DNA of 64,000 nucleotides from Myxococcus stipitatus. GTDB taxonomy: Bacteria; Myxococcota; Myxococcia; Myxococcales; Myxococcaceae. The notes below the pieces were generated by a model, which made no database searches, was not told where the DNA came from, and saw nothing but the letters and a program-made list of their open reading frames with translations. A program made the translations under genes and the position numbers. This document shows positions 27,567 to 32,517 of the stretch, piece by piece. The stretch's first letter is position 1. Each line of letters starts with the position of its first letter. The stretch lies in assembly GCF_021412625.1 (NCBI RefSeq), contig NZ_JAKCFI010000010.1, positions 124,001-188,000 on the forward strand, given 5' to 3'.

Positions 27567-28415
27567 TCAGAACGCGGGGACCACCGCGTCGCCATACTTC
27601 GTCTGGATGAAGCGCCGGACCTCCTCGGACTGGAGCGCCTTGAGCAGGGTGCGCACCTCCGGGCGGGCCTCGTCGCCCCGGCGCACGACAATCACGTTGG
27701 CGTAGGGATTGCGCGTGGCCGACTCGCGGGCGAGGGCCTTCGCGTCCAGGTTCAGGTGCTTCTGGGCCTCCAGGAAGTAGTTGCCGTTGATGACGGCGGC
27801 GGCCACGTCCTCCAGGGTGCGGGGCTGCTGCTCGGCGTCGATTTCCCTCAGCGCCAGCTTGCGCGGATTGCCCACCACGTCCGCCACCGTGGCGCCTGCG
27901 CCCACGCCCTCGCGCAGGCGCAAGAGGCCGTTGTCCTCCAGCAGGTGCAGCGCGCGCGAGGCGTTGCTCGGGTCGGCGGGAATCGTCACCTGCGCGCCCT
28001 CGGGCAGCTCCGCCAGCTGGCGGTACTTGATGGAGTAGAGCGCCAGCGGCTCCAGGTGCACCGCGCCCGCGCTGCTCAAGGCCAGCCTCCGGTCCGCGGC
28101 GAACCGCTCCAGGTAGGGCACGTGCTGGAAGTAGTTGGCGTCCAGCTGCGAGTCCGCCAGCGCGATGTTGGGCTGCACGTAGTCGGTGAACTCCACCACC
28201 TCCACCCGCAGGCCCTCGCGCAGGGCCACGGGCACGGCGGCGCGGAGGATCTCCCCGTGGGGGACGGGATTGACGCCCACCTTCACGATGCGCAGGCCGG
28301 GGGCCTGCCCGGTGCTGAGCGGTTCGGACTTCGAGCACCCCGTGCCCACCAACAGCACGGCGGAGACGACGGCGAAGGCCAGGGGGATGAGCAGGAACGA
28401 CGCGGGCGGCTTCAT
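27567..28415 (-). CDS. metQ: D-methionine-binding lipoprotein of the MetNIQ ABC importer
   Basis: A 282-residue substrate-binding lipoprotein with signal ending LLVGTGC, so Cys27 is lipidated. The NlpA/MetQ fold is shown by LRIVKVGVNPVPHGEIL at the start of the mature domain and by FTDYVQPNIAL, LDANYFQHVPYL and PADPSNASRALHLL. It delivers methionine to MetNI. It is the last gene of the operon, 51 bp after metI. Placement with cysK and the cystathionine-type genes supports methionine as substrate; the NlpA family also contains members for other ligands. Confidence 0.92.
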   Translation of the reverse strand: MKPPASFLLIPLAFAVVSAVLLVGTGCSKSEPLSTGQAPGLRIVKVGVNPVPHGEILRAAVPVALREGLRVEVVEFTDYVQPNIALADSQLDANYFQHVPYLERFAADRRLALSSAGAVHLEPLALYSIKYRQLAELPEGAQVTIPADPSNASRALHLLEDNGLLRLREGVGAGATVADVVGNPRKLALREIDAEQQPRTLEDVAAAVINGNYFLEAQKHLNLDAKALARESATRNPYANVIVVRRGDEARPEVRTLLKALQSEEVRRFIQTKYGDAVVPAF

Positions 28416-28466: not shown

Positions 28467-29147
28467 TCAATCGAGCGGACGAGCAGGCTGTGCGCGACTG
28501 TGGTCGAACCGGGACGCGAGCCCATCCCCGAGCCACTGCACCCACTGGACCAGCGCGAGCAGCACCACGAGGCACCCCAGCATGACGTCGGTGCGGAAGC
28601 GCATGTAGCCGTACTTCACCGCCAGGTCTCCCAGCCCCCCGCCGCCCACCGCGCCGGCCATGGCGCTGTAGCTCAAGAGGCTGATGACCACGAGCGCCGT
28701 GCCACGCACGAGTGACGGCAGCGCCTCCGGCAGGAGCACGCGGAAGATGACCCGCGGGTGGGTGGAGCCCATGGCGATGGCCGCCTCGACGAGCCCGCCG
28801 TCCACCTCCCGCAGCGCCTGCTCCACCACGCGGCCCATGAAGGGAATCGCCGCCACCACCAGCGGGACGATGGCCGCCGTCGTGCCGATGGTCGTCCCCA
28901 CCAGCAACCGCGTCAGCGGGACGATGGCCACCATCAGGATGATGAATGGCACCGAGCGCCCCACGTTGACGAGCGTGCCCAGCACCCGGTTCAAGCCCGG
29001 CCGCTCCCACAGCCCGCCCCGGTCCGTCAGCACCAGCAGCACGCCCAGGGGCAGCCCCGCGAGCACCACCAGCACGCCGGCCACGGACGTCATGTAGAGC
29101 GTCTCCAGCGTGGCCACCCACAGCGAATGCGCCAGCTCACCCGACAT
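28467..29147 (-). CDS. metI: Methionine ABC transporter permease
   Basis: A 226-residue inner-membrane permease with about five hydrophobic helices. The segment AAIAMGSTHPRVIFRVLLPEALP is the EAA loop that couples to the ATPase. It works as a dimer with MetN. The start overlaps the end of metN by 11 bp, showing tight translational coupling. Size and helix layout match MetI. Confidence 0.93.
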   Translation of the reverse strand: MSGELAHSLWVATLETLYMTSVAGVLVVLAGLPLGVLLVLTDRGGLWERPGLNRVLGTLVNVGRSVPFIILMVAIVPLTRLLVGTTIGTTAAIVPLVVAAIPFMGRVVEQALREVDGGLVEAAIAMGSTHPRVIFRVLLPEALPSLVRGTALVVISLLSYSAMAGAVGGGGLGDLAVKYGYMRFRTDVMLGCLVVLLALVQWVQWLGDGLASRFDHSRAQPARPLD

Positions 29148-30134
29148 GGGCGGCCTCCTCGCGCGTCAGGCCCTCTTGCCGCAGGAACGCCAGCGCCTGG
29201 GCCACCGCGTCCGGCGCCCCCGTCAGCTCGAACAACAACCGCCCCACGCGCGTCTCGCCCACCCGCTCCAGCGAACCCTCCAGCAGGTGCGCGTCCACGT
29301 CGAAGCGGCGCGCCAGGGTGCTCAGGATGGGGCGCGTGGAGTGTTCGCCCGCGAGCGCCAGCTCCACCCGCTGGCCCCCCCGCAGCACCGCGGCCTCGCC
29401 CGTGACGAAGGGCGGGTAGCACAGCTCGTGCAACCGCGTGCCCGGCCTCGCGAGCAGGTCCGCCACCTTGCCCTGCTCGACGAGCCGGCCCTTCTCCAGC
29501 ACGGCGACGGAGTCGCAGATGGCCTTCACCACCTCCATCTGGTGGGTGATGAGCAGGATGGTGAGCCCCAGCCGCTGGTTGATGTCGCGCAGCAGCGACA
29601 GCACCGACCGCGTCGTCTCCGGGTCCAGCGACGACGTGGCCTCGTCCGACAGGAGGATGCGGGGACGGGGCGCCAGCGCGCGGGCGATGCCCACCCGCTG
29701 CTTCTGTCCGCCCGACAGCCGCGCCGGATAGACGTCCGCCTTGTCGGACAGGCCCACCAACGCGAGCAGCTCCGCGACGCGCTCGCGAATCCGCTCGCGC
29801 GGCAGCCCCGCCACCTCCAGCGGATAGGCGACGTTGCCCGCCACCGTCTGCGAGGAGAACAGGTTGAAGTGCTGGAAGATCATCCCGATGCCCTGCCGCG
29901 CCTGGCGCAGCTCCTCCGGCTTCAGGGACAGCAGCTCCTTTCCGTTCACCCGCACCCGGCCCGACGTGGGGCGCTCCAGCAGGTTGACGCAGCGGATGAG
30001 CGTGGACTTGCCGGCGCCGCTCTGCCCGAGCACGCCGAACACCTCTCCAGGCTCCACCCGCAGCGACACGTCCTGGAGGGCCACCACCTCCCGCCCACCC
30101 TGGGCGTACACCTTGCCGACCCCACGCAGCTCGA

Positions 30135-30138
<4 letters not shown>
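29137..30138 (-). CDS. metN: Methionine ABC transporter ATP-binding protein
   Basis: A 333-residue ATPase. Walker [11 protein letters not shown]-loop in [10 protein letters not shown], signature [15 protein letters not shown] and Walker [13 protein letters not shown] are all present. About 90 residues at the C-terminus form the NIL/ACT-like domain that in MetN binds methionine and inhibits transport when the cell is replete, so transport should be feedback-controlled. The ATG at 30138 overlaps the cysK stop in ATGA; the longer frame upstream lies within cysK and was rejected. Confidence 0.94.
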
Positions 30139-31103
<965 letters not shown>

Positions 31104-31153: not shown

Positions 31154-31198
31154 GGGAAAAGAAACGGCCCGTCTCCGATGCTGCTGGGGGACGGGCCG
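31154..31198 (-). terminator. Intrinsic terminator in the cysK leader (attenuator)
   Basis: On the minus strand CGGCCCGTC (from 31198) pairs with GACGGGCCG (ending 31165), a 9-bp GC stem extended by two more pairs after one mismatch, followed at once by TTTCTTTTCC. It lies about 25 nt after the leader-peptide stop and 50 nt before the cysK start. The upstream segment GACGGGTC (31250-31243) can pair with GGCCCGTC of the 5' arm (8 bp, one G-U), giving a mutually exclusive antiterminator. A small hairpin GGCACG/CGTGCC lies over the second Cys-codon pair and adjoins the antiterminator arm. Confidence 0.7.
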
Positions 31199-31222
31199 GA
31201 CACGCCTGTGCGCGAAGGACGC

Positions 31223-31309
31223 TCAGTACGCTCGAACGGATGGACCCGTCGGGGCACGACAACACGTGCCGCGACAACAGGTTCCGTGGGGAGCGACGAG
31301 GACGAGCAT
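31223..31309 (-). CDS. Cysteine-codon leader peptide before cysK
   Basis: A 28-codon ORF starting ATG at 31309 and ending TGA at 31223. The peptide contains [10 protein letters not shown]: two Cys-Cys pairs four residues apart. All four Cys codons are TGT, although genes in this window use TGC almost exclusively, and several other codons also end in T, so codon choice is unlike a normal gene here. The promoter at 31318-31346 would place the mRNA start within a few bases of the ATG, so the ORF is probably leaderless; GAGG also sits 2 nt before the ATG. A ribosome stalled at the Cys codons for lack of Cys-tRNA would affect the antiterminator/terminator choice downstream. Homology is unlikely to be detectable; the case rests on codon content and position. 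Confidence 0.65.
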
Positions 31310-31317
31310 CGCCTCAG

Positions 31318-31346
31318 GACGTAACCAATCCGCCGCACGCTGTCAA
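31318..31346 (-). promoter_or_regulatory. Promoter before the cysK leader
   Basis: On the minus strand TTGACA (31346-31341) is a perfect -35. After a 17-nt spacer, TACGTC (31323-31318) occupies the -10 position but matches the consensus poorly. The predicted start point, 31309-31311, coincides with the leader-peptide ATG. It overlaps the end of the upstream intergenic gap, only 14 bp after the preceding PLP-enzyme stop. Confidence 0.5.
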
Positions 31347-31359
31347 CCCGACCTCCTCT

Positions 31360-32517
31360 TCACGCGGCCTCCCTTACCGACTGGCTCAGCGCCCGCGCGA
31401 GGTCCGCCTGGAGGTCCTCCACGTCCTCCAGTCCCACCGAGAAGCGGATGAGCCCGTCGGTGATGCCCCGCCGCTCGCGCTCCGGGGCGGGCACGGAGGC
31501 GTGCGAGTGCCTCGCCGGCACCGTGACGATGCTCTCCACCGCGCCCAGCGACACGCCGAGCAACGGCAGGCGCAGCGACTCCACGAAGCGCCCCGTCATG
31601 CCGTCGCGCGCCAGCCGGAAGGACACCACCGCGCCGGTGCCCGGATAGAAGACCTCCCGGATTTCGGACCTGCCACCGAGCCACCGGGCGAGCGCTCCGG
31701 CGGTGCGGACCTGTCGCTCCATGCGCACGTGGAGCGTCTTGATGCCGCGCTGGAGCAGGAAGCAGTCCTGGGGGCCCAGCACCGCGCCCACCGCGTTCTG
31801 GAGGAAGTAGACCTCCCTGGCCAGCTCCGGCGTGCGCACCGCCACCGTGCCCGCGACGACGTCGCTGTGTCCGCCCAGGTACTTGGTGGCGGAGTGGATG
31901 ACGATGTCCGCGCCCTGGGTGAGCGGTCGCGACAGCGCCGGGGACAGGAAGGTGTTGTCCACGATGAGCAGCGCGCCGTACGTGCGCGCCAGGGTGGCCA
32001 TGGCCGGGATGTCGGTGCGCTTGAGGAACGGATTGCTCACCGTCTCCACCAGCAGGCCGCGCGTGTCGGGACGGAACGCGGCGCGCACCGCCTCCACGTC
32101 GCTGGTGTCCACGAAGGTGGCCTTGATGCCGAAGCGGCTGAAGACGCGGGTGAGCACCCGGAAGGAGCCGCCGTAGCAGTCGTCGGTGACGACCAGGTGG
32201 TCGCCCGCGCTGAACAGCATCAGCACGGAGGAGAGCGCGGCCATGCCGGAGCCGAAGGCGAACGCGCCCGCGGCCTCGTCCAGCGCGGCGAGCACGCCCT
32301 CCAGCGCCTTGCGCGTGGGGTTGCCCGAACGCGCGTAGTCGAACTCACCGGGCGTCTCCAGCCCCGGCTGGTCGAACATGGACACCTGGTAGACGGGCAC
32401 CGCCGCGGCGCCCGTCACCGGGTCCACCTCGTGTCCGGTGTGCAGGAGCCGCGTCGCGAAGCTCGACTCAGCGGGAGCCGGCGTCGAGCGCCTGGGCCAG
32501 GTCGGAGATGATGTCAT
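31360..32517 (-). CDS. Cystathionine gamma-synthase/lyase-family PLP enzyme (second of a tandem pair)
   Basis: A 385-residue Cys/Met-metabolism PLP enzyme. The PLP lysine is in DIVIHSATKYLGGHSD. The family hallmarks YARSGNPTRKALE, FGSGMAALSSVL and VDNTFLSP are present. The family covers cystathionine gamma-synthase, gamma- and beta-lyases and homoserine sulfhydrylases, and the motifs seen do not separate them. The ATG at 32517 lies 50 bp inside the end of the preceding paralogue and has GAGGA 6 nt upstream, so translation is probably coupled. Paired with the next gene and aspartokinase-homoserine dehydrogenase, it fits transsulfuration between homoserine and cysteine or methionine. Confidence 0.88.
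   Translation of the reverse strand: MTSSPTWPRRSTPAPAESSFATRLLHTGHEVDPVTGAAAVPVYQVSMFDQPGLETPGEFDYARSGNPTRKALEGVLAALDEAAGAFAFGSGMAALSSVLMLFSAGDHLVVTDDCYGGSFRVLTRVFSRFGIKATFVDTSDVEAVRAAFRPDTRGLLVETVSNPFLKRTDIPAMATLARTYGALLIVDNTFLSPALSRPLTQGADIVIHSATKYLGGHSDVVAGTVAVRTPELAREVYFLQNAVGAVLGPQDCFLLQRGIKTLHVRMERQVRTAGALARWLGGRSEIREVFYPGTGAVVSFRLARDGMTGRFVESLRLPLLGVSLGAVESIVTVPARHSHASVPAPERERRGITDGLIRFSVGLEDVEDLQADLARALSQSVREAA

Follow-up and report, generated by a model that had tools for sequence, protein, structure and literature searches.

Does a short, cysteine-rich open reading frame (ORF) in front of cysteine synthase and transporter genes in Myxococcus stipitatus serve to sense the supply of cysteine? 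In the trp, his, and ilv attenuators, a leader ORF with regulatory codons is combined with mutually exclusive 1:2, 2:3, and 3:4 pairings of the transcript. Here, we describe a leader found by sequence inspection on the minus strand (31346 to 31157) of a 64,000-nucleotide stretch of contig NZ_JAKCFI010000010.1, hereafter the window. It contains a short ORF enriched in codons for the end-product amino acid and an intrinsic terminator between this ORF and the first gene. A first-pass annotation had read it as ribosome-mediated attenuation responding to Cys-tRNA, and comparison among genomes supports that interpretation well, through conservation in 29 leaders, compensatory changes, and a computed switch. 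We put the probability at roughly 0.87 that the leader is a ribosome-mediated transcription attenuator sensing charged tRNA-Cys; the operon would then very probably be switched on by cysteine shortage.

The leader lies just downstream of a metC-like gene (31360 to 32517) that runs in the same direction, and all leader features given here are on the minus strand. It opens with the perfect −35 element TTGACA (31341 to 31346) reported in the first-pass annotation, which is found in all 33 metN-linked leaders (29 typical and 4 diverged). After a 16- to 17-nt spacer, a probable −10 element, TTACGT (31319 to 31324), occupies a position kept in the alignment, where relatives have TTACCT, CTACCT, GTAGCA, or GTACCA-like sequences. 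A simple sigma-70 consensus scan of the leader called no promoter because the −10 is poor. The distance from the start of TTGACA to the start codon is 36 to 39 nt in the 33 leaders, and judging by this promoter spacing the ORF is probably leaderless.

The ORF has 28 codons and a TGA stop (31223 to 31309), and its length, start, and stop are intact and free of indels in 29 leaders (23 distinct). Its four Cys codons form two TGT TGT pairs, at codons 11 and 12 (31274 to 31279) and codons 16 and 17 (31259 to 31264). TGT makes up 12% of Cys codons in the gene-like ORFs of the window, which bears out its earlier description as rare; the probability that four of four Cys codons are TGT is about 2 × 10−4, and that of at least four Cys in 27 codons is about 4 × 10−4. 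The second pair lies in the loop of a putative anti-antiterminator hairpin (1:2; 31244 to 31282), in which ACCTGTTGTCG is paired with CGACGGGT and encloses GGCACG-TGTTGT-CGTGCC (31270 to 31253), the local hairpin around the second Cys pair that had been pointed out before. Segment 2, GACGGGTC (31243 to 31250), could pair with the terminator 5′ arm, GGCCCGTC, in the ribosome-masking model described below. The strong hairpin and U-tract noted after the ORF are likewise present: the predicted intrinsic terminator (3:4), CGGCCCGTCCCCCAGCAGCATCGGAGACGGGCCG (31165 to 31198; −20.3 kcal/mol), has the arms CGGCCCGTC and GACGGGCCG, with its outer eight stem pairs invariant in 16 aligned leaders, and is directly followed by the U-tract TTTCTTTT (31157 to 31164). 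Compared with shuffled sequences, folding is more stable for the whole leader, the terminator, and the ORF alone, with z scores of −3.9, −3.7, and −2.6, respectively.

With the leader DNA as query, BLAST gave matches in 17 of the 27 same-genus genomes and no convincing match beyond them; the single match outside the genus (G036), 27 nt long and without the second hairpin arm, was rejected. A covariance model built from 16 same-genus leaders located the leader in 25 of the 27 same-genus genomes and in four genomes of a second genus, g31 (E values of about 1e-18 to 1e-21), and these make up the 29 typical leaders. The same-genus genomes without a leader (G015 and G021) are also without metN, and the four g31 genomes with a leader, of 16, are exactly those four with metN; no leader was found in a genome without metN. 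Among named species, Myxococcus dinghuensis and M. qinghaiensis are closest, which makes the genus Myxococcus in a broad sense. A cysK protein search of named genomes returned mainly unrelated CysK and was set aside. The ORF has 28 codons in all 29 leaders, with spacers of variable length on either side. Codons 11 and 16 are TGT throughout, and codon 17 is TGT or TGC, a change that is synonymous only. Conservation of the Cys codons, put forward as a check of the first-pass annotation, thus holds in all 29 leaders for codons 11, 16, and 17 but is partial for codon 12, which encodes Cys in 16 of the 23 distinct leaders. Diverged, GTG-started Cys leaders (VHASLLRCCRCPITRRPGEEGACERAFLV and VLLACARCCPHVVATWCGHEGARVRT, each up to its stop codon) stand upstream of metN in g32 and g30; in these, TTGACA precedes the start by 36 nt, and a terminator, CGCCCCGG...CCGGGGCG, with a U-rich tail is present. 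No such Cys leader was found upstream of metN in g8 and g9.

RNAalifold predicts that almost the entire ORF forms one long hairpin, followed by the terminator, with the second Cys pair in the loop and the first in the 5′ strand. Two-sided changes occur in the 1:2 hairpin at three alignment pairs (77-100, 83-94, and 84-93) and consist of C-G to G-C, A-U to G-C, and C-G to U-A replacements. The covariation score of this hairpin is 0.138, compared with 0.090 ± 0.009 for shuffles; 0 of 500 shuffles reach it, and it exceeds that of all slid registers. Since loop codons 16 and 17 are unpaired and yet kept as Cys, RNA pairing alone is insufficient, and translation is indicated; from this conservation, we infer that the leader ORF is translated.

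A translated and conserved ORF might also encode a functional small Cys-rich protein, with a metal or redox role, in which case the hairpin would be an ordinary terminator of the ORF or of the upstream metB/metC. The well-conserved C-terminal residues of the peptide, GPSVRA, and the shared direction of the upstream genes are consistent with such a protein. The GPSVRA codons, however, are conserved because they form the 3′ strand of the hairpin, and the terminator is kept in g31 although the gene upstream of the leader there is not the metC homologue. The g30 and g32 peptide, moreover, is quite different and still Cys-rich, and the leader is invariably upstream of metN. We therefore regard a small functional protein as very unlikely and return to attenuation as the preferred explanation.

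The alternative pairing of 31243 to 31250 with the terminator 5′ arm, suggested in the first-pass annotation, is possible and is retained in 95% of cells compared, but the duplex is not beyond chance: in the window, its energy is ordinary for GC-rich shuffles, 338 of 1,000 of which are as good. Complementary changes had been sought in both pairings and were found in the Cys-codon hairpin, at the three pairs above, but not between segment 2 and the terminator arm. Swapping segment 2 and terminator arms between clades revealed no cognate preference, with duplex energies inside the shuffle range, and co-evolution of the antiterminator is not claimed. The candidate antiterminator is supported by the modeled dependence on ribosome position and the conservation of that switch, not by pairing energy.

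For this computation, the transcript was folded up to the terminator 3′ arm with the RNA under and behind the ribosome, that is, all RNA upstream of it, hidden; the model describes equilibrium and not kinetics. In the window, pairing between the ORF and the terminator 5′ arm has a probability of 0.01 when no ribosome is present and of 0.92 when the A site holds codon 11 or 12; this value falls to 0.87 for codon 16, 0.45 for codon 17, and 0.17 for codon 20, and is at most 0.04 from codon 22 onward. The modeled switch turns over at the last Cys codons in the window and behaves broadly likewise in other clades. Dinucleotide-shuffled ORFs matched this contrast in 0 of 400 cases for the window, 0 of 400 for the 13-Mb clade, and 4 of 400 each for g31 and the 9-Mb clade; for the diverged leaders, the counts were 11 of 400 (g30) and 26 of 400 (g32, which is marginal). 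As an equilibrium model, the computed switch supports the classical 1:2, 2:3, 3:4 logic. A first masking model, which used a whole-arm average and a footprint-only mask, gave a blurred picture with some antiterminator left at the stop codon and was rejected.

According to the proposed mechanism, transcription would begin a few nucleotides ahead of the ATG, and ribosomes would load straight on the start codon. With plentiful Cys-tRNA, the ribosome would pass codons 11 to 17, and segment 2 would be covered or, around the Cys codons, would re-pair with segment 1; with segment 2 occupied, the GC-rich terminator would fold and transcription would end before cysK-metNIQ. With Cys-tRNA in short supply, the ribosome would stall on the Cys codons and hide segment 1. 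The freed segment 2 (ACGGGUC) could then pair with the emerging terminator 5′ arm, allowing read-through and transcription of the cysteine synthase and the MetNIQ-family importer.

Could the Cys-rich ORF, the terminator, and the complementary segments have come together by chance? A 2:3 duplex no stronger than that of shuffles and a weak −10 would be expected of such an assembly; preservation across 29 leaders, the compensatory changes, the shuffle control of the switch, and co-occurrence with metN would not. Because the leader is conserved, a chance origin is already refuted, barring an error common to all alignments, and we give it almost no weight against an evolved attenuator.

Conservation of the U-run, also anticipated in the first-pass annotation, holds for 21 of the 29 typical leaders, as well as for all 4 diverged leaders, but not for the other 8 typical leaders, in which a good U-tract or terminator is missing and the terminator is weak or absent. 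Seven of these, from the 9-Mb clade (L120 to L122, L124 to L126, and L128), have a hairpin that is not followed by a proper U-tract; in the eighth, from G020 (L127), no comparable terminator hairpin was recognised. The ORF and its Cys codons are intact in all eight. Termination in these leaders must therefore differ, and intrinsic termination is not universal; they may use Rho or may be partially degenerate. Such retention of the ORF after loss of the U-tract or terminator is what would be expected if Rho-dependent termination or translational coupling were the chief means by which the Cys leader acted, with the hairpin secondary, as proposed for mycobacteria. Cys leaders were first predicted in Actinobacteria; in the mycobacterial ones, no terminator hairpin was seen to be conserved, and Rho was suggested (PMC1262725). 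The window clade, however, has a conserved strong terminator, a U-tract, and a switch predicted to depend on ribosome position. We consider Rho or coupling unlikely as the main mode of action, although it could apply to the 9-Mb clade, and favor ribosome-mediated attenuation at an intrinsic terminator.

The gene past the leader in the window clade is cysK, which encodes cysteine synthase A (30135 to 31103; TIGR01139, 436 bits against a cut-off of 351). It is followed on the same strand by genes for a MetN-like ABC ATPase with a NIL domain (29140 to 30135; PF00005 and PF09383), a MetI-like permease (28467 to 29147; PF00528), and a MetQ/NlpA-family substrate-binding lipoprotein (27567 to 28415; PF03180). 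The first-pass annotation had named cysK-metNIQ as the target. The metN part of this assignment stands, as metN lies downstream of all 29 leaders, but cysK intervenes in only 11; the other 18 are without cysK, and the first gene recognised after them is metN. For this reason, metNIQ is taken as the constant target. By this comparison, the leader is a metNIQ leader, to which cysK appears as a lineage-specific addition acquired in one clade.

The best NCBIfam match of the ATPase gene product (29140 to 30135) is MetN, but under the equivalog cut-off. Both the MetN and MetQ homologues score under the NCBIfam cut-offs for the methionine-transporter models, and their substrate may therefore be other than methionine. 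Placement behind a leader that would sense cysteine suggests that the substrate is cyst(e)ine or some source of sulfur, and the MetNIQ-family transporter would thus import cyst(e)ine or a different sulfur amino acid.

A SAM-I/IV riboswitch (RF01725, 46.3 bits; 36525 to 36405, minus strand) lies further upstream in the same gene cluster. It precedes genes for an aspartokinase-homoserine dehydrogenase and two Cys/Met-metabolism PLP enzymes, after which comes the Cys leader, so that one gene cluster contains two different sulfur sensors. With this riboswitch nearby, the leader might itself be thought a riboswitch or a T-box instead of a translated leader. In the window, however, only the SAM-I/IV riboswitch matches Rfam at the gathering score; the leader falls below it for every family, with no T-box match, and its coding frame, which includes invariant Cys codons, is conserved. 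We judge a riboswitch or T-box most improbable here and retain the translated attenuator.

A search of the 10-Mb genome for TTGACA followed by paired Cys codons gave 10 hits, among which a short Cys-run ORF with a terminator-like hairpin was found only in the window leader and in a second locus, L150 (L150 1501-1700, G000:C13 near 108069; L180). The L150 ORF encodes MTLRTPIACCCCRAPAVGACPPVA up to its stop codon, with the poly-Cys stretch ACCCC, and is followed by a terminator-like hairpin. This second type of leader occurs in every one of the 27 same-genus genomes, and the genes after L150 encode an OprP-type porin, a sulfate-binding protein, CysT, and further sulfate ABC transport components. 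CCCC leaders with hairpins were also seen in g32 (L240, L241, and L244), before a sulfate-binding-protein gene; in g3 (L242), with five consecutive Cys codons, before a NirA/sulfite-reductase-like gene; and in g9 (L243), before a gene of no assigned identity. The relaxed own-genome scan (TTGACN...TGYTGY) was discarded as noise (196 hits, compared with 280 in the control), as was most of the class-wide CCCC pattern outside the genus, apart from the inspected hits in g32, g9, and g3. The switch model was not significant for two of three type II leaders tested, both from this genus, with 233 of 300 and 139 of 300 shuffles matching; for the g32 leader, 8 of 300 matched.

It is, on balance, reasonably probable that Myxococcaceae control sulfur acquisition through a regulon of leaderless attenuators that combine Cys codons with intrinsic terminators. 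Its members would be type I leaders before metNIQ (joined by cysK in one clade), type II leaders before the porin and sulfate ABC transport genes (27 of 27 same-genus genomes) and the g32 sulfate-binding-protein gene, and, probably, the leaders before the g3 and g9 genes. By implication, the MetNIQ-family transporter would handle cyst(e)ine or serve cysteine supply.

Compared with the classical trp, his, and ilv attenuators, the myxobacterial leader likewise combines a regulatory-codon leader ORF with alternative 1:2, 2:3, and 3:4 pairings, but it would sense cysteine, is probably leaderless, and has one long predicted hairpin across nearly the entire ORF. In mycobacteria, polycysteine leaderless short ORFs are cysteine responsive, as reported by Canestrari et al. 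(2020, doi 10.1111/mmi.14498) according to PMC9094748 and PMC9031893. As far as these accounts go, the mycobacterial and myxobacterial leaders are alike in being short, probably leaderless ORFs with adjacent Cys codons before sulfur or cysteine genes, with a Cys-tRNA response proposed; the myxobacterial leader differs in its phylum, its constant target MetNIQ, its strong intrinsic terminator, and its paired anti-antiterminator with compensatory changes. In Rhodobacterales, the uORFC-8-2 motif consists of a Cys uORF and a terminator upstream of cysS (PMC8632094). It shares tandem Cys codons inside a hairpin and a terminator with a U-run, and ribosome-mediated attenuation has been proposed for it as well (PMC8632094). 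It belongs to a different phylum, however, and has cysS as its target and a single Cys pair, mostly UGC, at codons 14 and 15 (PMC8632094), whereas the myxobacterial leader has two pairs (codons 11 and 12 and codons 16 and 17), mostly UGU, and metNIQ with or without cysK as its target. No paper on myxobacterial Cys leaders was found among the open-licence papers searched.

Cys-codon attenuation was thus previously known from mycobacteria, where a terminator was not found, and from one alphaproteobacterial cysS motif. What is new here is a Myxococcota version with a complete predicted terminator/antiterminator switch, compensatory changes, and several sulfur-gene targets, which suggests that leaderless Cys leaders are old or of repeated origin. 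Clades in which the U-tract is gone but the Cys ORF persists provide a natural series for leader function without an intrinsic terminator. For the myxobacteria, the leader offers a compact, testable mechanism of sulfur control and hints at cysteine-related substrates of the MetNIQ-type transporter.
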